The notes under the pieces are model-generated. The model saw nothing but the letters and a program-made list of their open reading frames with translations. It was not told the DNA's origin and did no database searches. Both the position numbers and the translations under genes were made by a program. Below, piece by piece: positions 2,479-21,426 of a stretch of 22,198 nt of DNA. The DNA is taken from assembly GCA_024220525.1 (NCBI GenBank), contig JAMYWO010000029.1:1-22198 (forward strand), in the 5' to 3' direction. Positions within the stretch are counted from its first letter, which is position 1. Every line of letters begins with the position of its first letter. The stretch is from Cochliopodium minus (taxonomy: Eukaryota; Discosea; Himatismenida; Cochliopodiidae).

Positions 2479-5400
2479 TTATTGAATCTTATTTAAAAAG
2501 TGCAATACAGTGGTAGCTACAAAATACTGTTACACAAGTTGAATTATTAAAAAAAAACTAACCATGAAGTTCAATATATCTACTTTGGTCTTTTACATAA
2601 TACCCCATCAACTCACCATACACCAAATAAGCCTTTCCAAGTAGTGGATCTCTCTTGTTAGTGAAAGCATCAATGCATTTGAGAATCCTCTCTTCTAAAA
2701 CGTTCAACACACCAAAATTGAAGAGATAATTTCTGTAATATATAGATTTGAAGACGACTTTTTGTAACTTTCTCAAAGCGGTGGTATTATCAGGTTGGAG
2801 ATCCAGAAGCTTTAGAAAATTTTTTTGAGATTTTGAAGTATGGCCAAGCTCACCTTCTAAGATCCCCAGCCTTAATCTCGCATCATAGTGGTTGGGCGAG
2901 ATAAAGAGGACATTTTTGTAGTTGATTTTAGCCTTTTTATAGGTGACAGTCCATTGAGACTGCTCTTTTACTACATTAGTGAGCATGTGAAAGACATTTG
3001 CGAGTTGATACATAGTCTCAACGCTACCAACACGAGATCTAAAAACAAAAAAAATGAAGTAAAATTTTTTTTAAAGGGTTCTATTAAAATTTTTTTTACT
3101 TCAAAGCATTCTAAGAATAATTGGTAATTAGCTTCAAAAAAAAAAATGAAATAAAAAAATCACAGTGAGCATCTCTTGGGCAACACTAAGAATTCTTTCG
3201 TTGGGAATCTTACTCTCAGTTGCTCTATAAATGAGTGACATTCCTATTTAATTAAATTAATTAAATTTTTGTTCAAATGATTATTTGGTTTTTAACCTCC
3301 AGCATAATCAACCAAGTTGGTATGTTTGACTTTGGTGTCTACAGAAACAATGTCCGTCACCACAAAAATGATTTGTTCGATAGAACTGTTTTGGTAAGTT
3401 CTGGTACATGTCTCTGTGAGCTTGATTCCCAACATGGCAGTGAGCCTTTTGATGAGAACAATCTTGTGAGTTTGCTCAACGATCAAAGATTTTAAATCGA
3501 AAGTAGGTTGGGACTGCTCATCAGACAAAACTTTTTCGAATTTATCTAACAACTTGTCTTTTAAACATCCATTCCAATACTGGTTAGACTTCTCCGAGAA
3601 TTCGAGATTACCCAAGATCATGTTGAAAAATTCGGCGGTGATGGATCGGAAAATCTGGTCGTTAGGAACAGTGAGTTGCGACATCTTCTCTCTGTAGAGC
3701 GCGCGCAGTTGACATTTCATCGTCCTAGCCAATGCTTCCACCAACAAAAGATCCCTCATCTCATCGTTTTTGGAAATAAATCTCACTCTCCCCAATTGTC
3801 TTTTAAAAAAACATTTTAGTTGAAAAAAAAAATTTTCAATTAAAACAAAAATTAAACTTACCTCATGTTTACACCTCGCTCATGAAACAAGATTTCCAAA
3901 TTGGTTGTGTCTTTATCATTTTCTTTAATATACTTTTCGTCCAAAACTTCAGCAAGTTTTGGAACAGTTTCCAGCAACAAGGAGCGATATGCTTCCTCTA
4001 CTTCCGACATATGTAATTGACAATCGTGAGACCCCATTCTAGAGAATGCATCAGGAGACAAAGGTTTCTTCCATCTTTGTACAAATTCTTTTTTAAAATA
4101 TTTAGAAACATATGTGAAATAGATAGAAAAAAAATACCAGGACGCAATAGTTGATAGAGAGATTTTTGAAATTTGCTTTTTTTAGGAGGCTATAATTTAA
4201 TTTTTTGTTAATTTTAAAATATTTTTTAAAAATATTTTGATGCTAGAGGATATTACTTCGGGAGGCATATATCTTGCGAAGTCTAAGACATAAAATCTCC
4301 CATCCTTTCCTTGATGAACCTTTGATGAAAATAAATTTTAATTTTACAACTAATAAATCCAAAAAAAAGTCCTTACTTCGATATCTGCAGGACCATAAAT
4401 GTTAACTTTCTTCTCCTTTCCCACAATGTGTCCCTTTATATTCATCAATTTACCCAATTTCTCCATTTTATCGTTGACTTTAGGAACAGTATCATAAACA
4501 GTATTACCTGCGTCATAACTTCCATATCTTTTAATAATTAAAAAATAAGCACTGACATCAAAAAAATATTAATAAAATTTTCTTACACAATAGTATCTTT
4601 GGAATTAATAATGGAATTAATTTAAACTAATTTTTTAAAAAAATTAACCTTTTCCAATTGGAAGTAGAGATATCGCAGTTACTCTGTAGCCTCTATAGTC
4701 GATCAAAGCCATGAGAGGGACGTGAAGACCTTCAATCTTATAGTTGAAATATGTCATCAGCCCGTTTAACTCATGTCCCGCTGCCTTCATTGCTCCTTCA
4801 TCTCCTCCGTATATTCCCTCAAAATCGATTGCAAATTTGAAAAGAATCCCTTGAAAAATAAAAAAATGAGTATTATTTTTAGTTTTTGAACAATGAATTT
4901 ACCTTGGATGATGTATTTCTTTTCAAATCAATTTAATTTTTATCAACAAAGTTTTCAAAAATTTTTTACTTCACCTCCAGCAATCCCTATAATTTTAAGA
5001 AAATAAAATTATATTTTTAAAAAAATCTATCAACAAATTATTTACCTCCAATGTTGATAGGCTTGATAGTTTTTTTCTCGTTTGGAAGACATTTCTCTGA
5101 GATGATGATCCTTCCATATGTCTCTGCACAATAGACGAAATCATTAGCCAAATTCATCAATCCATCGTACTTGATGAAGGAATCCTCCATATCCATCAAC
5201 TTTTGGAATTCCTTGTTCCATTCTGGGGGATTGTAATTTTCTTTGGATTTCTTCCATGATATCTTATCTGACAATAGCAAGGCCAATGGACTGCAATCCA
5301 ATTTCTCTTCCTTTTCAATTTCTATCTCCTCCTTTATTGTATAGTTGTCTTTATTGTTTTCATTATTCTCATTGTGCTTGAAATATAATTATTTTTCGTT

Positions 5401-6211: not shown

Positions 6212-7597
6212 ATGAAATTAAAGATTTTTTTCCTCTTTATTGCGATAGTATTTGGACAAAACCCATGTTGTGCTCCTGAAGATTGGAGAGCAAATTATAG
6301 GTAAATTTATCAATATTAATTAGCCCCATAAGATGAATATAAACACAACAATAATTGTTGACAATTTCAATCATTTTAACCAACAGATCCTTTTCTGAGA
6401 ATGGAAAGAGCACAGAATCATTTTACATATATAGCACAAAAGATTCAGCAACATATTTACAATCATTCTATCAATCACAATCAGATACAGGACAAGTTGT
6501 GGTAGAAGTGTAATATCAAAATCGATTCAAAGATAACTAAATTCATAATATTTTAAATAAAAATATCTCACTTGATGAATAAAAAATATCAATTCTAATT
6601 TCATTTCTTTCAGATGGTATTATCCAAAAAAAAATGTATCTTATATTTTCAATTCAGATCAAGATACATGCCAAAAATACTCCATCAATTTCACTATGAC
6701 GGATTTGAATAATTGTGTGGGGACAGATCATGATGAATATGTGACCTCAGTAACTATTGGAACGTAATTCATATTAGTTTCCATCAAATATGACCTAATT
6801 AACAATTTATAATTTTATTAGAACGAAATGTAGTGTATGGGCATCACCATCACAAAATGGAGAAACAACATTATTCAATACTGGTAACTGCTTCCAAATA
6901 AAAATAAACATCCGCTAATTAATTTATATCCGCTGAAGCTATATTCATAAAACTTCCTTTGTGAAACTAATTTTCTTGTTTCATCTATGAATCAATTTCC
7001 CATTTAACATAAGCTGAAATATAATTTACTTTTTATAAATACATATTTTTAACAAGATTAACACGATATATTGGAGATATAACCCCAAATATATAATTGT
7101 TGTATATTGAAAAGGACTGCAATTAATTTCTCGTTATTGAAAATATGTTAGTAAAAATGATCGATAAAGGATCAATATTAATCAACATATACAAATGATA
7201 ATATGATTATTTGGATCTCATTGATCAATTATATAGTATCTTATGTTGAGATATAAAAATTGATCCTCAGATTAAATTCTCACAAAAGAATTTTCATTAT
7301 GGAATTTTATTTAATCTTTTTTTTTTACAGTTGCTAATGATGGATGCATTCCTGTTGCTTTTAATTGGGATCACAACTTTGATTTGGGATATTCTTTGTA
7401 AATTTTTTATTATTTTTAACAATTCAATCTAGCTAATTTTGAAAAACAAAAGTAAAAATTTTGATTTGTGGACCAATTTCACCACAGCAGGTGTTGTCAT
7501 ACCTCCCCTAAACTCTTTGTGCTCAAAAGCTAAACTTGAAAAGGAACCTTTTCCTTACTTGAGAGCAATTCTTGAATCACAAAAGACAAATCATTAA
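6212..7597 (+). CDS. Secreted ependymin-related (MERP-like) protein, copy 1
   Basis: Six exons: 6212-6300, 6387-6509, 6614-6763, 6822-6883, 7331-7397, 7453-7597; 636 nt, 211 aa. The N-terminus MKLKIFFLFIAIVFGQ is a signal peptide. The mature part starts NPCCAPEDW, followed by a repeated hydrophobic/polar strand pattern, several Cys, N-x-S/T sites (NVS, NFT) and a late PPLNSLC segment. The order (CC.P near the start, YIFNSDQDTCQKY mid-chain, C-terminal NFTTAGVVIPPLNSLC) resembles ependymin-related extracellular or lysosomal lipid-binding beta-sandwich proteins. This family call rests on pattern, not on a search. Every intron position and phase matches the downstream copy. Intron 4 is 447 nt because it carries a MITE. 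Exons are nearly identical to copy 2, implying a recent tandem duplication. Confidence 0.82.
7139..7295. mobile_element. MITE-like element, copy 2 (157 bp), in intron 4, with target duplication ATT
   Basis: The element starts GAAAATATGTTAGTAAAA at 7139 and ends CAAAAGAATTTTC at 7295, flanked by ATT (7136-7138 and 7296-7298). The paralogous intron of copy 2 reads CTCGTTATT directly joined to ATGGAATTTT at about 8567-8583, an empty site with a single ATT. This fixes both ends. Outer ends are inverted (GAAAAT.../...ATTTTC), and inner arms GGATCAAT (7169) and ATTGATCC (ending 7266) are also inverted. It is the reverse complement of the element at 2217-2394. Confidence 0.85.
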
Positions 7598-8905: not shown

Positions 8906-10704
8906 TCATTTGTTATTCTCAACATTGGGATTGTTATTGTTAGTTTCTTGATCGAGTTTCTCGCCAAGAAAGTTGAGTGGGGAAGATTGAAACAAATTGG
9001 ACAAATCTTCAATTTTGTTGCTATTTTGATCCCCTAGCTCAACAAGGGAGTATTTGAGAGAGTCCTTGCGTGAGATGGGGATCACCTCATTGATGACGTG
9101 AGCGCTGTATTTGGTGATTGGATTGAACTTGATGTCTTTGAGAGTTTGCTTTCTCAACACATCTTTGTTCTGTGAGATCCTATCGATCAACATTAGATTC
9201 AATTTCGTTGATTTACCCAATCCTTAAAAGAATATTAAAATAAATTCTCGGAAATTTTTTTTTTTTTACGTATATTTATGATTTCTTCCAAAATTTGTTT
9301 TGCAGAAGGCCTCTTTTCCTGAAAGGGCTCCCAGCAACTTTTCATCAAACAGAGGTAGTTTTCGTCCCATTTTCCTTCATTTTCGATGTGAGGTCTCAAA
9401 CCCCTTACCTTTAAAAAAGAAGTTCAAAAAAAAATCAATTTAAATTTATTTCATGTTTGAATGAAGATTTCTTTTTTTACAATTTCTTTTTCAAGTTGAC
9501 TGTTGAACATTTTTTGATCTTCAAAGGGAAACTTCCTAGTTTGAATTTCCCACATCACAATTCCAAACCCAAAAATATCAACCTTCTCGTTGTATCTCTC
9601 ACCCAAAATCAGTTCAGGAGCCTTTTTAATCACAGAAAAAATTAAAAATGAAACAAAGTAATCAATTATGTTATTTTACCATCCATGTAGGGTTATCTAT
9701 GGGGCTTCTTCCATTTGTGTAATGATTAATGAAAGAAGCAGTTTCAAAATCACTTTTTTAAAAAAATTCATTAATGAAAAATAAAAAAGAAAAAATAAAA
9801 AAAAAATTAATTTAACATCAATTTTGCTGAAAAAGGATCTGTTTTTGTAACCAAAATGTTCTTTATTTAAAAAAATTATTATTTTCAAAAAATTTATGTT
9901 ATTTTGGGTTTGTACCATGCTTTTGAAGTCACGATGGACAATTTTTGGAGAGAATGAGTGTATTACGTCCAGCATTTTTGCCAAAACATAGATTATGTCA
10001 CATTTATATACAATACTCATTCCTCCTAACTTGTCTGACTTTAAAAAATTTCCAAGATCCTTTCAAAGAATAAAAATAAAAAATAAAAAATAAAAATAAA
10101 AATAGAAAAAAAATTAAAAAAAAATTAAAAAATGATTTACACCAATTTCGGAGTACTCCATGATTATAGAACAAGGATCAAGAGTAAACCCCTTCACATC
10201 CACGATCAATTCCTGGTTTTTCAAAAAGCACAATAGATTGACTTCCCTCCTTTAAATTTAAATAAGAAATAACAAAAATTAAATTATAAAATAAAAAAAT
10301 TAATAAAAAATAAAAATAAAATAAAAAAATAAAAAATAAAAAATAAAAAATTAATAAAAATAAAAATAAAATAAAAAAATAAAAAATAAAAAATAAAAAA
10401 TAAAAAATAAAAATAAAAAATTAGAAAATAAAAATAAAAAAATAAAAAAAAAACGAAAAATAAAAACTGAAAAATAAAAATTAGAATATAAAAAAATATA
10501 AAACAAAAAAATTTGAAACCTCCAACTTTCTTCTGTCTGAAAAATTCCGTCTTCATCTTCAAAAAGAAGTTCCTTGACAGCCACCTTAGAACCCATGTAA
10601 TCAGCCAAAAAAATCTTGCCACCACTTCCCTTTGCAATCTGCTTTTTTTTCTCGACGAGGAGGTTCTCCTCCTTACTAAGCTCGAATTTTTTGTGGTGGC
10701 TCAT
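8906..10704 (-). CDS. TKL-type protein kinase with a DFE motif in place of DFG
   Basis: Eight exons: 10520-10704, 10141-10249, 9916-10059, 9817-9860, 9680-9752, 9481-9621, 9270-9408, 8906-9222; 1152 nt, 383 aa. Glycine loop GSGGKI at 26-31, VAVK lysine 44, a REV glutamate at 64, catalytic loop HRDFKSMN at 140-147, DFE at 162-164, WMAPE to 188, FGFGIVMWEIQTRKFPF, then CLMKSCWEP and RPSAKQILEEI. These are tyrosine-kinase-like features. The catalytic Asp, Lys and Asn and the metal-binding Asp are kept; only the DFG glycine is changed, to Glu. The last 105 residues form a polar, Asn-rich tail. The substrate is unknown. The frame stays open upstream of the chosen ATG with a CPTC motif at about 10760, so a 5' extension is possible. 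The stop is 35 bp from the convergent ependymin-like gene. Confidence 0.85.
10060..10140. repeat. A/T simple repeats in kinase intron 2
   Basis: AAAAAT and AAAAATT arrays, T-rich on the sense (minus) strand, between the kinase exons ending at 10141 and starting at 10059. Confidence 0.8.
10250..10519. repeat. A/T simple-repeat expansion in kinase intron 1
   Basis: A 270-nt intron made almost wholly of AAAAAT/AAAAAAT arrays. The kinase's other introns are shorter and less repetitive. Reading frames across it give only Phe/Tyr/Leu runs. Confidence 0.85.
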
Positions 10705-11112
10705 GAATAAGTAAGGTGCTATTTTTTCTGTGTGGAGAATGTGACTGATATTATTTTCTGAACATGTGGGACATTGGACGGAAGACTAATTTTTTGTTTA
10801 AATATTCGTTTTCACAGATTTAAAATTTTTTTTTTTTTGAATTTACCCTTCTTTCTTTCAAAAATATAAAAAAAATTTTAAATATGTTTTAAATTTTTAA
10901 ACACATGAAAGTTTTTTTATATTTTTTTTTGAAAATATTTTATTTAATTTTATCAAATATTTTATTTTATTTTCATATATAGTTTTTTAATTTTTCCACC
11001 ATTTTATTTGGAAATATTTTTTTTTTTATTTTTCAATTATTTTATTTTTTTATTTTTTATTTTTTTTATTTTTTTTATTTTTTTATTTCATTATATTTAT
11101 TAATTTTTAATT
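10705..11112. other. Spacer between the ROCO-like stop and the kinase start
   Basis: No convincing gene. The segment from about 10850 to 11112 is T-rich on the plus strand (TTTTTTA arrays around 11040-11095), the opposite polarity to the introns of the flanking minus-strand genes. 10705-10786 is open in frame with the kinase and contains a CPTC motif, preceded by TTAG. A GTAAAT donor-like site lies at about 10845, so a 5'-UTR intron or an extra upstream exon cannot be excluded. Upstream of that, the frame closes without an ATG. Confidence 0.5.
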
Positions 11113-14100
11113 TCATTGTATTTTTATTTTCTTACTCAATACTTTAGTGGAGATGAGTGAAGAAAAACTGCAATCGGAAATGGGAATGGCGCTGTAATAC
11201 ATAGCCGTTTTGGATCTGCAGATGTAGACTTTTAAAAGAGACTCGATAATGTCGTTCAGAACAAAGAAATTTAAGTTGGCGTTTTCACCTAGTGAGAATA
11301 TTAAATATTTCAAAAAATAAAACAATAATGGAAAATAGAAAATAAAAATAAAAAAATAATAAAATAATAAAATAAAAAATAAAAAATAAAAAATAAAAAA
11401 TAATAAAATCAAAAATGAATTAATCAATGAATATTATATTTTAATAAATTGAAAAAGAAAAAAAAATAAAAATAATAAAACTAAAATAATAAAATGTGAT
11501 GAAAATAATTTTAATTTTAATTAAAATAAAAATTTTAAAACCTTTGACTTTTATTCCAATGAAATATCCGCTCTTGTGAGTGGAGAAGAAAACAGCAAAG
11601 GAAGATTGTGGGTCAGTTTTACAAATGATGAAATCTCTGTAAACTCTCAAAATTTGGATGTTTGGCCAATGAAGAACCTTTTCAAAACAAAATAAATTTC
11701 AAATAAAATATGATTTTATGAAATAAAGTGATGATAATAAAACTAAATGTAAGAATAAAATAAATATAAAGATAAAAATATATAATAAATATAAATATAA
11801 ATATAAAAATAAATACAAATATAATAAATTTATTATTTTTAAAAAAATTTACCTGAAAGAAGATTTTTGATACTAAAAGAGGAGAATAAATAGCCAAGAA
11901 AAAACACTTTTCTATGTCGGGTTCTTCCATAGGAGAATCTCCGATTGTGTCGAAATCGAACTCGGAAAAATTGTTGGGAGGATCAAAAGTGTACCACATG
12001 TCCTTTATGGTCTCCCAGTCGCAAGGACATTTGGTGAGGTGGGAAGGGTTAATGTAGATGTGATTTTGTTTGGGCTTGACGGAGTTGAGTTTCAAGGTGT
12101 TTTTGAATTGAGTGTGAGTGGAGAAATTGAGTTTTAGATCAAATATCAATCTTTACGTAAAAAAATTTTTTAAAGATTTTGTTAGATTTATTATAAAACA
12201 AAATTAAATTTTATTGTTGAAATACTTTATTTAAAAAAATGAAAGAAGAAATAATATAAAAGAGACTTTAAAACATGAATTTTTATTATTATTGAAACCA
12301 ATTTAAAAAAATCAAAAAAATAAAAATAATTTATTGCATGAATAAAAGAAATAAAAATAATTTACTCCATTGCAGTCACAAAGTCAATAAATTTGTTGAT
12401 CCAATAAGGAGAAATATTCACGTTGGGATAATTGGAGATGAATTGGAGGTAACAACTGGCGATATCTATTACTCCATTCATCTTTTGAGAATATTTGTGC
12501 AGGTGTCTCAGCAGAGCGGAAATTAAAGGAGGATGTGCAATCACTATTTTGTTCTGTCCCCAACTCGCAGAGTTGAAATATATCAACATACTTCTTCTGT
12601 GCTCAGTTTCGTACATTGAAGATAAAGGCTCTCCCATTTGGCAGCCTCGAAATGATTTTTAAAAAAAAATTTTAAAAATAAACTTGAAATTTGAAAAAAA
12701 TAAAAAATAAAAATAAAAATAAATTGTGTTATTTCAAAAAATAAAATAAAAATTAAGTAAAAATAAATATTCTTCACTTTTAAAAGAAAAGTTCACCTTC
12801 TATCATTTTGTCTAATTGATAATAATTTAAAATCGAAAAAGGAGATGACATTTCAGATTCAGAAAGAATCATCTGATCCAACTGTACGACTTTGTGCGGA
12901 ACTTTGGGAAACTTGGAGGAAATTTTGGTTAGCATCTCGTAGAACTCCTTGGTGTTTTCGTTGTTCATGAACAAACAGCCCGCCACATTCAAAAATTGTT
13001 CGGAGATTTTATCGAGAGAAAGGGTCTCGATTTTCTTTTTTATTTTTCTGTCAATGTTGTTACCATCATTTCCCAAAACGATGATCGATCCTAAATAATT
13101 TGAAAAAATAAAATCCAAGATTTATTTTATTATTATTTTTTATTTTCATTTTTTTAAACTGTTCATTTGTTTTTTTTTCATTATATATTTGTTATTTTTT
13201 TTTTCACTATTTTTATTATTTTTAAACTAACCTGTCTTTGTGGATCTTATTGATTGTATTTCTGAAAAGACTTCTCCGTTGTTTTCGGATATTCCGGTGA
13301 TTAGCACAAACACAGTTTCTACGTTGATTGGGAACATTGATGAGTAGACAGAGAAGAGGTGAGTACTCTCGAAGCCTGTCACTTTCAGCTTTAGATCAAG
13401 ACTGGGCACATCGATCTCCTCATAAAAATTTTCAGATTTTTTTTCAGGAATGTAAAAAGGACTAATTCCAATCTAAAAAAAATGAAATATAAAAAATAAT
13501 TTATTTTAAAAGTAACAAAAAAAATTATTTATCATTATTTTTTGCTATTAAATATTTTTTTTATAAAAAAAAATGTTTACAGTAGATTTCCTTTCAGAAA
13601 GAGTCCCACTCATGTCCGACGTGGACCTTTCCAATGTGTATTTTGCTTGGAGGAAGTCTTTGGTAAAAAAATAATAGTCCTCTTCTTTTTCGAACAGGAC
13701 AACAATGTTCAACTTGTTGGCTGGATAATTTTTGCCAGAGAGCTCTTTACAATGGTTGATAAATGATGTGGATTGTGTTATATTATAAAAAGTTTCTTCA
13801 TCTAAAATTTTTTGCATTTAATAGAAAGTTTGTTTGTAAAATTGTTGATATAATTGTATTAACTTTTTCAAACCCACTCTATAAAATTTTTAATCAAATA
13901 AAATAAAAATAAAATAAGAGGAAGAGTATATCAGGTTTGATGGATTTGTAGGAACAAGATGTTACAATTTAGAGCTATAAAATCTTTGTTTCTATGATTT
14001 AGATAATGAATATTTCTTTCAATCAAAGGTATATAATTTATTTAGCATTATTTTTATATCATTTTCTAATCCAATCTATCTATCCATAAATGAAAATATT

Positions 14101-17100
14101 TATCAAGTTGATTTTACAATGGGATTAAAAAGTTTTTCATATAAAATGATAATTTGGATCTTATTTATGGTATATTATGTTGAAATATAAAAATTGATCC
14201 AAATTAAATGGAGCATTATTCTCATAAATAAATTTAATTTTATATTAACTGTGAATATAAAAATGTAAATACCAATTAGATACTTGAGATCTTGGGGCAA
14301 AGATAAACTCAAGTTTCCGTAAAGAGAAACTTTCAATTTGGCCAAGGAAATTATTTGGGGAGGAAGCTCGAGCAGGTTGTTGAAGTTGAGATTGAGTTTT
14401 TTGAGGTTGGTTAAATAGGAAATGTGAGGAGGAAGGTATTTGAGTTTATTTTCGCTAAGATCAAGTTCGGATATCCTAAAGATCATAAAATAAAGGATTT
14501 TATAAAAAATAAATAATGATAAAAAGAATTCATGGATTTTAAATAAATAATTTTAAAATAATAAAATAAAATAAAATAAAAAAATAAAATAAAAAAATAA
14601 TAAATAATAAAAAAATGAAAATGAAAATAAAAGATTTGTATGTCTTTACCCAGAAAGCAAAAAGATCTCAAAAGTGATGTTTTCGATTGATCTACCAGAC
14701 AAGTTTACTGAAAGAGATCTACTGACCCAACTTTGGTATAACTCAAGTTTGATGGGATCAAAAGAATTGTTGGATAAAGTGAGTTCTTTCAAAGAGTTGA
14801 TCTTGAAAAGATCATATGGCAAAAAGGACAAGTTGTTGGAATGCAAAGACAAGATCTCCAGGTCATAATAGCAACCCAAAGACTTGACATGATAAATGTA
14901 GTTTTCGTGAAGAAATATTTTGGTAAGTTTGGTGAGATTGGACATCGTAATAGGAAGTTTTTGGATATTGTTTCCGCTGAGGTCTAATGTCGTCAAGTTT
15001 TCCAACTTTGAGATACCATCTGGCACAAATTCGATCTCATTCATTCCCAACAACAAACTTTCTGTGTTCACCAAAGAAAAAATTGGAGCGGGAATTTCGG
15101 TGATTTTGTTTCTGGTGAGATCTATCGTTTTCAAGTTGTTCAGGTTGAGATTCTCGTCGAAAATAAAAATCGAGGAAATTAAATCTTCATTGATTAATCC
15201 GAACCAAGATAAATCAAGTCTATTTTGATCCTATTATTAAAATTTTTTTTAAAAATAAAATTATTGTTTTAAAATTGTTAATTACTCTCCCAAGATTCTT
15301 CTCATTTTTGTACATTGAAATTATACTTTCTCTGTTAATTTCAATCATCTCCCTCGAACTATAAAAGGTTTCGGGAATACTAGAAGGAGCTTCATCTATT
15401 AATTCAACCACTACCTTATCCTTCAAAATCTTTTGGATGGCATGTTGTGTAAAGGCGGAATTAGTGTAGAATTTCTTGTGGTTAATTTCTTCTTCTTTAC
15501 TCTTTTTCAATAAATTCTTCTTCTTGAATTTCCTTCTGTTTCTTGCTATCAAAATATCGAGCTGTTGGATGATGGTGACGAGCACCGAAATGGAGCAAGT
15601 GAAATTGAAGAGAGGCAGACAAGAATTTCTCTCAGCCAAGTTGATTATATTTCTGACTTGTCTTGTTGAGATGTTTGGATTTGCACTGTAAAAAAAAAAA
15701 GGTTATTATAAAATCATTTACAAAATAAATGAATTGCCTTATATCCAATGTTTCTATCTTGTTCCCAAATTTGATTAGATTGTTTATGAGTGATTTAGTG
15801 TCAACCTCGTCAATTTCACATTCTGACATGTAGATTTGCTTGAGTACATTGTAACCTAGACAGTAATCCACCAAACTCTTGATAGAGGAATCGTCCATTT
15901 TGTTCCTCGAAAAATCTACACAAATAAGATCGGGAAGGTAGTGAAGATAAGAGATGATCTTACAAACATGAGCACTTGTAAGGCCAAGATTTATCAACTT
16001 TAAATATTTTATTTTCGGATTTAACTGGAAAAATGATTCAAAAAATTCTATGGCAGGGTTGTCGCTGATTGCTCCATCAGAGATGAGCAAATACTCGAGA
16101 GATGTTTTGTTAAACTTGGAGAGGATCAAATTGAAAAGTTTTCTGCTCAATATTTTGTCCACTCCTCCTATTTCTAATTTCTTGATGGTTTTGACTTGAA
16201 TTGACCTGACCACTTCATCAAAGAGCTTATAAGTGCGATAGAAATGCTTTAAAATTACATTTTCATAATTTTCTGTTTGAGATTTCTTGATGGAGTTGAT
16301 AAAATCAGAGGACTTGGATTGTTTAATGGTCATCGTTTCAATCAATTGAAAAATGGTTTTGGGAGAATCTTCCGAAATGAGAGAGCTGAAGACAACATTT
16401 GAACGAAGATCAAAAAGAAAAGGAGAAACCAGCTTTTGAAATTGCTTTTCTATTGAATTTTTGTTGATAAGAGGTTGCTTGTCAATTTTGTTAACTACAA
16501 TTGTGATGGGAACGTTTCCAACTAAAGACTCTTTGTTGCTGACATATCTCGACTCCAAAAGAATTTTGAGTCCATCCAAGCTTCCTTTGTCAACGTTATC
16601 CTCCTCAAAGTTTTCGCAATCAGTGAAATAATAAATTGCATTCAGATCTGAAAAACTGTGATACCAGTTTAACTTTCCCCAACTGAAAGACTCATTCCCA
16701 TCTGTTATGACAGGAAACAAGAAATCCAACAATACAAACTTGAAATCGATGTTGTCCAGTTTGACATCATACGTCACCATGTTGCACCCATTGGCGTAAA
16801 TAATTTCGGGAACCAAAACAGTGTTGATAGGAAGCAAACTTCTGAGACCTTTCTCCAAAAAGCTCTTTTTACCTGAACCAGCTTTCCCAAACAACAAAAC
16901 ACTATAATGCGAGTTATGATTGAAGGGGAATATGTCAGAACTTTTTTTTTTGGCAGATAAACGAGAAGAATTCTTTTCGGAGAGAACATCAGAGAAGATG
17001 GAGTATTTGGTTTTCAATACTTTGTTTATCTTGGAGTTTTCCATTTTGTTGACAGTTTGCTCAAAGTTGGCAATTTTGAAAGGTTTGTCGTTGGGTGGAT

Positions 17101-18710
17101 TCTCACTTTTCAGCCACTTATGTTCTTTTTTTTGAAAAAAAAAAACAATCTTTAATTGACAGAATAAAATTAAGAAAAATTTTACTTAATAAATTCACTG
17201 CATAATTTCTCTCGTTGGGGTTTTTCTGGAACAAAATGGAAAGAAACTCTGTCCCGCTGGTGGAAATTTGATTTCCCGAATGGGGAAATAAAACTTCTTT
17301 GTTATTAATGTCATTCCTGAGGGATTCTTCAGAGTCAGTGCTGAAAGGATGGGCGCCATAAATCAAAATGTACAATAAAACACCTAAATTCCAAATATCA
17401 GAAGCTGTGGTATATTTCCCAGCGAGAGTTTCAGGAGAAGCATACATTAATGATGTTTTTATTTTGGACCTAGAAATGTTCAAAGAGGTGTTGATCAGAA
17501 CTGCTTTCTCTTTGGTCATTACAATATTACTGAAATTCATCTTTCCATAGACCATTCCTTCTTCGTGCAAATAAGACAAGAAAGAAAGTGAAGTTCTCGC
17601 AATCTCTTTGACTAATTCTTCGTCGAACTTTATTTCTATGTCTTCAAATCGATTAGACTTTGGCGAAAGCACTTGATTATCCAAAAGCTTTGCTATTTCT
17701 ACTGTTTTCTTGTCCAAAACAAACACATTGCTCAATCCTTGCCTGAACATAACATGGATTCCAGCGTGCTTAGGATGGAAAATATTTTTCCATAATTTGA
17801 ATGAAGATTGCCACTTTTTTGAATCCTTGAATGAATCAACAATAATGATCGGCATAAACTCTTTGGTGTCCAACATTATCGAGTCTTTTATCACCACATT
17901 CGTGTTTTGCATCTTGATGTTGGTTCCTCCTATCCCCTCGAAAATCTTAAAGCTTTTCATCGATAATGTATTCAGCACATACAAATCTTCTTCGTTATCC
18001 AAGAAGATATTGGAGAATGTATAATGACGGATCAAATTTCTATATTTTGTTGAATTTAAAATTTATTTTTAATAATCATTAATTTTACCCATTCAATATG
18101 GCATTTGCCAAATCCAATGCCTCATTCCTTGTGCAATTCAATTTATTGCATAATAAATCAATGAATGCCTTTCCCGTGAACGAGTTTTTGTTCATTTCGA
18201 AGAAAGGTCCTATATGCTTCAATATCTTTGAGATCAGATTTCCCTTTTGATTGAGATGTTTGAACATGAATAGCAATCCTGGTATTTCCAATCCTTTTTG
18301 GGCCTAATTTGAAATTAATATTCTTTGAATTTTGTGATATTGAACACTTAAATAGGGTTTACTAATTGATATATTGAAGTATTATCTTTGCTTTTTTCAA
18401 TCCATCCCTTCTCCATCATCTTCTGTAATAATTGATCAGCATCTTCGATCGAAATGACATAGATTTCTTTGAGGTAATTCACTGCATCTTTGAATTTGAA
18501 TTGATATGCAATGGATTCTTTCTTATCACCAGATAGAGGAATTCCAATCATCATATTTTTGAAGCATTTTTCCTTTATTTTTTTTTTTTTTGTAAAAAGA
18601 GGAAGGTGATCAGCAACCATCTTGTTTTTATTCTGCTAATTTACCAATTTGAATCCGAATTTATTAATTTCATTGAAAGAAGACTTGGAGAGATTTAAGC
18701 TGATCTTCAT
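11113..18710 (-). CDS. ROCO-like multidomain protein: DEP-DEP-pseudokinase-G-alpha-like-LRR-degenerate Roc-COR
   Basis: Fifteen exons: 18645-18710, 18363-18572, 18089-18303, 17186-18039, 15738-17124, 15286-15685, 14650-15230, 14273-14475, 13581-13801, 13232-13472, 12797-13090, 12366-12645, 11853-12150, 11542-11677, 11113-11288; 5562 nt, 1853 aa, all phases consistent. Residues 30-92 and 95-188 are DEP-like (GIPLSG...SIYQL; SFTGKAFIDLL...NGNLIRHYTF). About 205-460 is a kinase fold with VYGKMNFSN for HRDLKxxN and INTS at the DFG position, but ASPE, DIWNLGVLLY and LLKHKWL kept. About 520-720 is G-alpha-like: GKAGSGKKS 528-536, KLNWYHSFSDLNAIYYF, NKID 660-663. RNI-type LRRs follow from about 819, then canonical LRRs at about 1060-1300. 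A Roc-like fold at about 1325-1500 lacks the P-loop and NKxD. A COR-like segment (IVIAHPPLISALLRHL) comes next. Intron 5 is GC-AG. Probably a cytosolic or membrane-recruited signalling scaffold. Confidence 0.83.
11289..11541. repeat. A/T simple repeats in the last ROCO-like intron
   Basis: AAAAAT, AATAAA and AAATAAT arrays (densest at about 11318-11420) fill a 253-nt intron between exons ending at 11542 and starting at 11288. The segment is T-rich on the sense strand. Confidence 0.75.
13802..14272. other. Longest intron (471 nt) of the ROCO-like gene, with a diverged MITE copy
   Basis: Donor GTATTT after ATT-G (residues KYLI) and acceptor TTTTAG before AT-GAA-GAA join the last LRR to the Roc-like segment in phase. 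The intron holds the diverged repeat at 14092-14240 and otherwise unremarkable AT-rich sequence. An ATG lies just upstream of the downstream exon, directly after an in-frame TAA, so a separate gene starting at 13817 is conceivable but less likely than the splice. Confidence 0.7.
14092..14240. mobile_element. MITE-like element, copy 3, diverged
   Basis: Same orientation as the element at 7139-7295. Shared blocks are GAAAATAT at 14092, AAAATGATAAT, TTTGGATCT, and TATGTTGAAATATAAA followed by AATTGATCC and AATTAAAT near 14175-14208, then ATTCTCA near 14218. Ends are eroded, no clear target duplication remains, and length is close to copy 2. It looks older than the other two copies. Confidence 0.6.
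14476..14649. repeat. A/T simple repeats in a ROCO-like intron
   Basis: (AAAAT)n and AAATAAT arrays at about 14555-14630 in the intron between the two canonical LRR exons. T-rich on the sense strand. Confidence 0.75.
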
Positions 18711-18922: not shown

Positions 18923-21426
18923 CTAGTTTTTATTTTTGGGCCTTGGGATATAACTGTAAGTGCTTCTTGGGATGTAAGAGGGGATATTGTACTTTCCAGA
19001 TCCAACAACTATGATACCACCAAAACCAGCTTGGATATGGGAAGTGATGTGACAGCTAATAAATAAGTTGGGGATTTTTAAATATGAAAATAGAATATAT
19101 TTTGAATGATTTGTAATTTTATCATGGAAAAATCAAAAAATAAAAAAATTGAAAAAAAGGTGTTCATACTGCATCAAAAAAGGACCTTCATAATCAAAAT
19201 GAATTCGAAAAGCCTTTAGAAAAGAAAATAATAATTATGAAAACTATGCAAAATTTTTGGTTTTATTTACAGTCCAACTGGGATCTCTTGCACCACAAAC
19301 GGGGGAGAGTTTGTTACAAGCAGGCTTGGATCCACAAATAGAGTGATCGGTAGTGCAGTCACCAATCCCATTATCAACGGGAGTACAGCCAACACCTGAA
19401 CCCAAGCTAACAACATCCCTTCTGGAAGGGTTGATCATGTTGAGAGATTGTATATCTAATCGTAATTTATTGTAAGTAAAAATAATTGAATTTTTTTTTT
19501 TTACCTTTGCTTCCAGGTGTGGAATTGAATTTTCCAATCCCAGATCCCAAAATCCATTTATGATATCCATGAATATGCAAGGGATGGATATCGGTGTCAT
19601 AGTTGTAAAAGACAAAGTCCACAACTTGGCCCACTGGAACGTTGATTCTGTTGATGACGGTCTGGGACTCGTCAAAGATTGTTGGTACAGGTGGGTGTTT
19701 CCATTGTGTATAAGGGGATCCGTCTTTTAAGAAAAAGAAAATATTAATTCTAATGAAAAATTAAACTAAACGTTTTATTTCGATTCATGAATAAGACATT
19801 TTAAAGGAATTATCTTACCTATACTCAAACCCCATTTCAAACTTGATGTTGTTATAGTTTTTCCCACAACAGTGTCGGTGTAGAATGAATGGGACTTGAT
19901 TTGAACGATTCTCTGTGCTGCAAATGTAACGTTGGGAGGAGCCTTGTAAGTCAGAGGATGAGGAGTGATACCGGGTGCCTCGGAGGGGAATTCCCTAGGA
20001 GATGGAAACTCAACAGGTTGTTTGAACGGATCAACACCTTCGGTAAATTTAAATATTAAATTACATTTTATATTAAAAAATTTTGGAAAAAAATTTTCAT
20101 TACCTTCATAATTTAATAAAGCATAAACAATCGGATTTGGGAGCTCGGTCACAGGATGGAGATTGTATACATTAATCTTGTAATTCTCGCTCGCTCCATT
20201 CAATCCAGTAATGAGAATGTCCGCCCTCTGTCCATTCAAAACTACTAAACAATCTTTTCCATTGCTTCCATTCATGGTGAAAGGTTGGTGATAATCGATA
20301 TCATAAGCAATCACTTCAAATTGATGTCCCTCCACCGTGAAACAGATCTCATCTTGGTAATTATTGTTTATCAATCTGATTCTCTTCGTCTGACCTCTTC
20401 TCATAGGGATGATATAGGGATTGAGCGAGGATTGGCCATTGATGTGGAAAACTTTGGCATGGAGAATCTCTGGTTTTGATTGATCATTGTTTCGATAAAA
20501 GAACTCTATATCCAAATATCCTCCTATGTAAAATAATAATATTATTATCAACATGAAAGAAAAATTTTTTTACCCATAGCCGGATATTTTGGTATTCCCG
20601 AAATCATCAAAGTATCTTCTTCGCTATATCTTCCTGAGAATGGATTCACTGATGTTTTCTCGATCACATTCATGCCTCCTGCCAATTGGTCCATAATTTG
20701 TGATTCAAAGCTTCACAAAAAAATGATTTATTGGAATTGTAAATTTTCTTTTGAAAATTCATTTTTAGAAATTTTTTTTTTTTACTGTGCATGATAGAAG
20801 AATGTCCCAGGCACATTGCATTGGAATCTATATATAAAGCTGCTTCCACTTGGTATTGACCATTGTGTAATTCCATTTGCTAATTTTTATAAAGATTGGA
20901 TGAATAAAATTAATAAATTAATTAATTATTTCTTTACCTCCATCCGCGTACATTGATCCTCTCATCTCTATTCCATGCCAGTGAACAGATGTTGGCATTC
21001 CAAGATGATTCGTCACTATAAATTCCACATTATCTCCTATATTATATTATTATTTTAAATTCGTGTCTTATTGAAAAATCATACCTTGTGTTATATTCAA
21101 TGTTGGTCCTTGAAATTTTTTTGAATATATTATGACATTGAAAGAGATCAAAATGATTTACCTGGTGTTTTAATGCCAGTACCATCATCAATACCTATGA
21201 CCATATATGGATCTATATTGTGGTTTCAAGCATTTAGTATTATTAATTTTTATAATTTGTTGAAATTTAATTTACCTGTGGGATAATTAAGATAGTTTGG
21301 ACCATCAGGTCTCAATAAATGATATTTGATTTCCCAATAGAAGGTTTTATCAGCAACGAATGCATTTGATCGGCAAAATAAATATATAATTGATAAAAAT
21401 ATAATTAAATTAATTATATTCTTCAT
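18923..21426 (-). CDS. Secreted multicopper oxidase (laccase-type)
   Basis: Twelve exons: 21276-21426, 21162-21212, 21085-21108, 20938-21036, 20786-20879, 20574-20710, 20104-20523, 19819-20037, 19505-19723, 19271-19455, 19170-19213, 18923-19055; 1776 nt, 591 aa. The N-terminus MKNIINLIIFLSIIYLFCRSNA is a signal peptide. All four copper-binding motifs are present: HWHG (H94, H96), YHAH (H138, H140), HPLHIHG (H445, H448, H450) and HCHITSH (H548, C549, H550, H554). The residue ten after the type-1 Cys is Phe559, so the axial Met is absent, as in high-potential fungal laccases. The middle domain shows FHINGQ, RIRLINNN and the GQRADILI stretch. Between domain 3 and the C-terminal motif lies a Cys-rich insert at about 490-530. 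Expected to oxidise phenolic or metal substrates outside the cell or in endolysosomes, reducing oxygen to water; the substrate is not shown. Confidence 0.95.

Follow-up and report, generated by a model that had tools for sequence, protein, structure and literature searches.

The stretch of DNA analysed here, 22,198 nucleotides of Cochliopodium minus (contig JAMYWO010000029.1, positions 1 to 22,198; the whole stretch is called the window below), carries on its minus strand what is, with a probability of about three in four, a single gene for a 2254-residue ROCO-type kinase that has been multiplied into a family and in which the G domains may have turned into scaffold. The predicted architecture taken by itself, DEP-DEP-pseudokinase-G domain-LRR-Roc-COR-kinase, is held with high confidence. 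Its LRR-Roc-COR-kinase core is, as judged by homology, of the usual type of Dictyostelium and LRRK proteins, among them the Parkinson-disease protein LRRK2, and a front module appears to have been added to it. Homology to paralogues shows the structure of the gene, and the aligned rows show that catalytic or nucleotide-binding motifs have been lost from the predicted pseudokinase, from the putative Roc and from part of the front G domain.

The best gene model runs from 18710 to 8906 and comprises 23 exons, whose protein reads, in domain order, DEP-DEP-pseudokinase-G domain-LRR-LRR-Roc-COR-kinase. All 22 introns join in matching phase (21 GT-AG, one GC-AG) and measure 47–471 bases, with lengths of 215, 253, 270 and 471 among them. 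A sequence-only reading of positions 11113 to 18710 had described a 15-exon, 1853-residue chain, ROCO-like and multidomain, in which a kinase fold and another fold of GTPase type stood ahead of the LRRs, ending at 11113 with nothing recognisable after COR. Its minus-strand exon chain from 18710 to 11143, with matching phases and with DEP, kinase-like, G-domain-like, LRR and Roc-COR-like stretches, is upheld, as is the general character of the protein; exons 1–15 account for 1844 residues, and nine further codons (VLSKKIKIQ, read to a stop at 11113 and intronic in the present model) would make up the 1853. The gene as modelled goes on, with exons from 10785 to 8906 following on the same strand, beginning with a CPxC...AP linker and encoding a full TKL kinase domain. 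Exon 16 opens at 10785 with SSVQCPTCSENNISHILHTEKIAPYLF and runs into that domain, which ends in exon 22. The features of the gene are as follows.

18645..18710, minus strand: exon 1 with the start codon (gene model; paralogue C12b has the same exon end, by eye).
18363..18572, minus strand: exon 2, first DEP-like domain, weak (Pfam, gene model).
18089..18303, minus strand: exon 3, most of the second DEP domain (Pfam DEP 5.6e-14 and 7.2e-14 in two scans).
17186..18039, minus strand: exon 4, end of the second DEP domain and predicted CAMK-like pseudokinase (Pfam Pkinase 4.8e-20, C-lobe).
15738..17124, minus strand: exon 5, pseudokinase end, Ras/Galpha-like G domain (GKAGSGKKS, NKID) and, by eye, a first LRR-like stretch (profile comparisons, gene model).
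15286..15685, minus strand: exon 6, after the GC-AG intron, end of the first LRR-like stretch and linker (gene model).
14650..15230, minus strand: exon 7, LRRs (LRR_8 1.2e-17).
14273..14475, minus strand: exon 8, LRRs (Pfam, gene model).
13581..13801, minus strand: exon 9, first part of the degenerate putative Roc, lacking a P-loop (family alignment, gene model).
13232..13472, minus strand: exon 10, degenerate putative Roc (family alignment, profile comparison).
12797..13090, minus strand: exon 11, Roc end, with LGNDG where a G4 motif is expected, and COR start (family alignment, profile comparison).
12366..12645, minus strand: exon 12, COR-A (found in 7/8 family rows, none for the window protein alone).
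11853..12150, minus strand: exon 13, COR (family alignment, profile comparison).
11542..11677, minus strand: exon 14, COR-B (genome search, family alignment).
11143..11288, minus strand: exon 15, COR-B end, which the sequence-only reading continued to the stop at 11113 (family alignment, gene model).
10786..11142, minus strand: intron formerly read as the gene end (paralogue comparison, gene model; borders within about 10 residues).
10520..10785, minus strand: exon 16, CPTC...IAPYLF linker and kinase N-lobe with VAVK (paralogue comparison, PDB search).
10141..10249, minus strand: exon 17, kinase (Pfam, gene model).
9916..10059, minus strand: exon 18, kinase with HRDFK (Pfam, gene model).
9817..9860, minus strand: exon 19, kinase with NILV (gene model).
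9680..9752, minus strand: exon 20, kinase with DFE (gene model).
9481..9621, minus strand: exon 21, kinase with APE, C-lobe (gene model).
9270..9408, minus strand: exon 22, end of the kinase C-lobe (Pfam, gene model).
8906..9222, minus strand: exon 23, C-terminal tail and stop codon at 8906 (gene model).

The start at ATG 18710 is accepted because exons 1 and 2 of C12b match it by eye: exon 1 ends FGFDL|GT there and FGFKL|GT in the window, and exon 2 opens KNCFKDL and EKCFKNM, respectively. An alternative start, ATG 18620, was given up after this comparison. At the joint of exons 15 and 16, the splice from 11142 to 10785 at GTATTG was retained as a simple phase-0 solution. Paralogues hold about 10 extra residues at this place (TRVLEHAVFEQRKFIQCP in C12b), so that another splice site or a tiny exon is possible, and the borders of the joint (11142/10786) are uncertain by about that number of residues.

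Relatives of the gene were sought in the whole genome (44.65 Mb, 598 contigs) with three parts of the window protein as queries, which returned C12 (two copies, C12a and C12b), C38, C398, C235, C99 (two copies, C99a and C99b), C147, C6 and C221; those that were read have long exons. The predicted pseudokinase, G domain and Roc-COR follow one another in this order at eight other loci (C12a, C12b, C38, C398, C235, C99a, C99b and C147), and a kinase is seen behind COR at six of the eight (C12a, C12b, C38, C398, C235 and C99b), the stretches of C99a and C147 ending before it. At C221 a pseudokinase fragment alone was found. Two neighbouring paralogues, C12:11738-17155 and C12:21315-27542, are by eye near-identical from the LRRs to the start of Roc, alike in the kinase and diverged elsewhere, a pattern of likeness that suggests gene conversion.

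The front module begins with one or two DEP domains, of which the second is clear (Pfam 5.6e-14) and the first weak: a scan at E up to 1 picks up both, a scan at E up to 0.01 a single stretch. The kinase fold that follows is matched by Pfam Pkinase in nine of nine family rows, in the window over the C-lobe. The motifs of an active kinase, HRD and DFG, are present in none of eight covering rows, which is why the domain is called a pseudokinase. Among the best 60 of 1701 solved chains in the PDB, CAMK-type kinases lead, with STK33 at the top and Tribbles homolog 1 included. The domain thus resembles Tribbles and other CAMK-type pseudokinases in its CAMK-like C-lobe and its lost catalytic residues, and differs from them in being one module of a ROCO protein. 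The sequence-only reading had a kinase fold in front of the LRRs and none after COR; with a TKL kinase encoded at the rear, in the usual ROCO place, the front domain is to all appearances an extra CAMK-like pseudokinase and not a relocated C-terminal kinase.

The front G domain had been called G-alpha-like, which holds in so far as the top matches of its profile in the PDB are Galpha chains (E 9.9e-5) and fails in so far as the Pfam G-alpha model reaches 13.8 bits in the window against a cut-off of 48.8. At E up to 1, single family members match G-alpha in 3/10 cases (best 0.0026), EF-Tu in 3/10 (best 0.0021) and Arf in 3/10, and further P-loop models match about as weakly as G-alpha. In profile comparisons, the full profile scores 92.1% with Rab, 53.5% with Galpha (on a template lacking the P-loop) and 1.3% with Roc; its C-terminal half scores 63.3% with Galpha over 66 columns and 65.2% with Rab over 14, five shuffled controls reaching at most 0.5%. 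The small GTPases of the genome match the domain at least as well as Galpha does. Galpha likeness is seen in the 66 columns themselves, which span W..HxF to NKxD, and in the NKxD motif (7/10 family rows, NKID in the window). The P-loop pattern GxxxxGK is kept in seven of eight covering rows (GKAGSGKKS in the window), with a Ser or Thr directly after it in none of eight and DxxG, by eye, in none of eight. The hallmark motifs of Galpha are GxGESGKS and DVGGQ; unlike a Galpha, the front G domain alignment shows neither. The domain is best called Ras/Galpha-like, a designation that is partly supported, with a Galpha origin unproven. Across the genome, 78 G-alpha matches were counted exon by exon.

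Behind the G domain, LRRs (LRR_8 1.2e-17) precede the putative Roc, as they do in the LRR-bearing ROCO group. COR-A is matched at E up to 1 by seven of eight family rows, the best at 1.8e-7. For a more sensitive comparison an ordinary ROCO profile was built from 7 of the 20 COR-A loci in the same genome, picked for their open frames, and the Roc-COR profile of the family scores 98.1% against it (E 8.6e-14), or 98.3% when the window row is left out. Five column shuffles gave 0.0–0.1%, the reversed profile 0.3%, and two unrelated profiles 0.9 and 0.2%. The COR half alone scores 96.8% (E 3.1e-10), COR being recognised at the level of the family only, and the putative Roc stretch lies in the right place, co-linear with Roc. 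In the PDB, a search with the Roc-COR profile up to E 10 returned only 3dpt (E 0.11) and 3dpu (E 0.23), which we take to be bacterial RocCOR structures. The GTPase motifs of the putative Roc are absent: a P-loop in none of six covering rows, a G4 motif of the N/TKxD type in none of eight, and DxxG, by eye, in none of eight. At 21 other loci of the genome the P-loop pattern occurs in 5 and the G4 pattern in 10; at the remaining loci the pattern was not found, in stretches that are short and split by introns. These motifs are taken to mark function rather than descent, and the protein is likely to be a ROCO kinase by descent and not a working ROCO GTPase. The ROCO set of the genome as a whole is large: with E up to 0.001 there are 60 matches to COR-A, and 21 of these exceed the Pfam cut-off. 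At C1:633812-634150 a small-GTPase-like Pfam Roc match (E 3.2e-12) sits in a frame that stays open for 14,711 codons, about 44 kb.

There is reason to ask whether nucleotide control has simply moved, such that GTP bound by the front G domain, and not by Roc, controls the C-terminal kinase. The front domain does keep the P-loop and NKxD patterns in most rows while Roc has neither P-loop nor G4. However, the Ser or Thr that follows the GK of a P-loop is the ligand of Mg2+, and both it and DxxG are missing from the front domain in every covering row, so that a working switch of this kind is unlikely.

The C-terminal kinase is recognised by Pfam (Pkinase 8.7e-37, PK_Tyr_Ser-Thr 6.5e-35). TKL kinases top its matches in the PDB, the nearest chains being CTR1, TAK1 and Roco4 (1.4e-23 for the last), and its place directly behind COR is that of a TKL kinase in ROCO proteins. 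VAVK and HRDFK are retained, and DFE stands in place of DFG in all five members covered (window, C12a, C12b, C398 and C99b). The linker between COR and kinase, CPxC...APxL, is found in the window and, by a strict pattern, in 6 of 11 paralogue stretches; C99b, with CPSC...VPDI, is by eye a seventh. It was not found in C221, nor in C99a, C147 and the front half of C6, the last three of which end before that place. A looser pattern occurs at 3 of the 20 COR-A loci (L011, L013 and L024), with the start of a kinase behind it. As far as such patterns go, the CPxC linker is a good mark, not a universal one.

The same linker bears on whether the exons from 18710 to 8906 belong to two genes, one for a ROCO-like protein that lacks a kinase and stops near 11113, the other for a kinase with its own start at ATG 10704. 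In favour of two genes, 357 AT-rich bases separate the two parts and an ATG (MSHHKK) is present at 10704. Against them, exon 16 can be read without a stop to further upstream than this ATG, and its frame holds CPTC...IAPYLF, the linker that C12b and C38 have in a single frame with COR and kinase; the gene also has introns of 215, 253, 270 and 471 bases in other places. The paralogue C12b (C12:21315-27542) is a single frame of 2076 codons from pseudokinase to kinase N-lobe, and aligns to residues 160–1927 of the window protein in the numbering of the first model, from the end of the second DEP domain to the kinase N-lobe. C38:120598-125796 is likewise a single frame, of 1733 codons, from the pseudokinase C-lobe to the kinase N-lobe (window residues 347–1935 in the same numbering). 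Open frames from pseudokinase into COR are found in C12a (1806 codons), C398 (1898), C235 (1680) and C99b (1754); in these four, as in the window, the long frame stops in COR-B and the kinase lies in other frames. Three joints of the window gene, at 17044, 13817 and 11113, are thus crossed without splicing in two paralogues (C12b and C38), and the first two of them, which the sequence-only reading had named as places where a transcript might start or end, in six. Because of these frames the exons from 18710 to 8906 are read as one gene, and a division into two genes is very improbable.

Least probable of all, and barely credible, is a family of decaying pseudogenes in which lost motifs mean lost function: several domains have indeed lost motifs, C221 shows no more than a piece of the pseudokinase and C6 is in two parts, but frames of 1680–2076 codons stay open in six paralogues, every intron of the window gene is in phase, and across the members covered identical motifs are gone from identical places, which suggests a state that is old and shared.

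Several results nevertheless weigh against the reading of a single ROCO-type kinase gene whose G domains have become scaffold. Of the domains named in the sequence-only reading, Pfam recovered DEP, Pkinase and LRR from the window protein, left G-alpha below its cut-off, and matched neither Roc nor COR in that protein alone. The window row alone scores 1.3% against the ordinary ROCO profile, and the case for Roc-COR consequently depends on the family. The COR-A scores of the family themselves lie below the Pfam cut-off of 35.3 bits (20.8, with C12b, C398, C235, C99b and C38 at 24.4–29.9). The Roc half alone scores weakly (21.3%, P 0.001; 0.5% for a four-sequence Roc profile), so the identity of Roc rests mostly on its position beside COR. 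Two ordinary ROCO loci with a kinase, L016 and L020, carry only the VPD/CPD part of the linker, lacking CPxC. The front and rear halves of C6 lie in the wrong order on the strand, such that not every locus is an intact gene. Finally, the DFE of the C-terminal kinase leaves its activity unsettled as far as sequence goes.

Reviews of known ROCO proteins describe groups with LRR-Roc-COR, with LRR-Roc-COR-kinase, and the DAPK1 group with a front kinase and no LRR (PMC6337361). The sequence-only reading placed the kinase of known ROCO proteins behind COR, which accordingly holds for the LRR-Roc-COR-kinase group and not for DAPK1 (PMC6337361); N-terminal kinases in ROCO proteins are also mentioned elsewhere (PMC11378527). 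Like Dictyostelium GbpC, Pats1, QkgA and Roco4 and like LRRK1 and LRRK2, the window protein has LRRs before Roc-COR, a kinase directly after COR and many added domains (PMC6337361, PMC6320773). It differs from them in its DEP-pseudokinase-G domain front, in a Roc lacking G1, G3 and G4, and in its DFE kinase. In GbpC a DEP domain lies after the kinase, whereas here DEP stands in front. RasGEF, RhoGAP and myotubularin domains are described in Dictyostelium ROCO kinases, of which one, roco10, is inert (PMC1420674). With the DAPK1 group the protein shares a CAMK-like kinase fold ahead of Roc-COR. DAPK1 lacks LRRs, bears a death domain and has an active kinase in front; the window protein has LRRs, no death domain among its Pfam matches, a front kinase without its catalytic motifs and a second kinase after COR. 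As predicted, it combines a kinase fold in front with a kinase at the rear. The novelty claimed for the domain order was borne out within the partial open literature searched (subscription papers and other protist genomes lay outside its scope), which held no ROCO protein with DEP, a pseudokinase or front kinase, and a second G domain before the LRRs.

These comparisons may inform a regulatory mechanism, which as a whole is tentative and somewhat short of even odds. LRRK kinases are kept off by their own front parts, and control of the LRRK2 kinase by Roc is debated. The working mode of the Roc GTPase is itself debated (PMC6337361), and in GbpC signalling is intramolecular, reaching Roc first and the kinase after it (PMC6320773). 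In the window protein the DEP domains would place the molecule at membranes or receptors, and the pseudokinase and both G domains would act as scaffold or allosteric parts that keep the C-terminal TKL kinase off. The LRRs would be expected to sense or to inhibit, and a cue acting at the LRRs or the membrane could free the C-terminal kinase; the switch is probably something other than GTP hydrolysis by Roc.

Around the gene, the window holds on its minus strand a multicopper oxidase gene at 19244-20569, upstream of the ROCO gene (Cu-oxidase 1.2e-15 for 19775-20569), and an exon of a CLU (clustered mitochondria) gene at 4644-4895 (8e-24). Between 6189 and 8862 a small gene or element is repeated in tandem, the two copies being 79–97% alike in pieces spaced about 1270–1640 bases apart. 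A repeat of 44 bases, 84% alike, occurs at 7223-7266 in the tandem-copy region and at 14157-14200 in the 471-base intron of the ROCO gene, and is perhaps a small mobile element.

The family, known from this one genome, is read as a ROCO branch specific to its lineage, with G domains that may have become scaffolds. Whether GTP switching was abandoned or moved in this branch, with a Roc pseudo-GTPase in every covered member, a front G domain that retains residues for nucleotide contact but lacks the Mg2+ ligand, and a pseudokinase stacked on a DFE kinase, is a possible but rather doubtful further step. With natural ROCO kinases that lack Roc GTPase motifs and retain COR and kinase, what Roc-COR contributes as a scaffold could more easily be told apart from its nucleotide cycle. 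If true, the family would show, as an experiment of nature, how Roc-COR serves an LRRK2-like kinase once GTP hydrolysis is gone.

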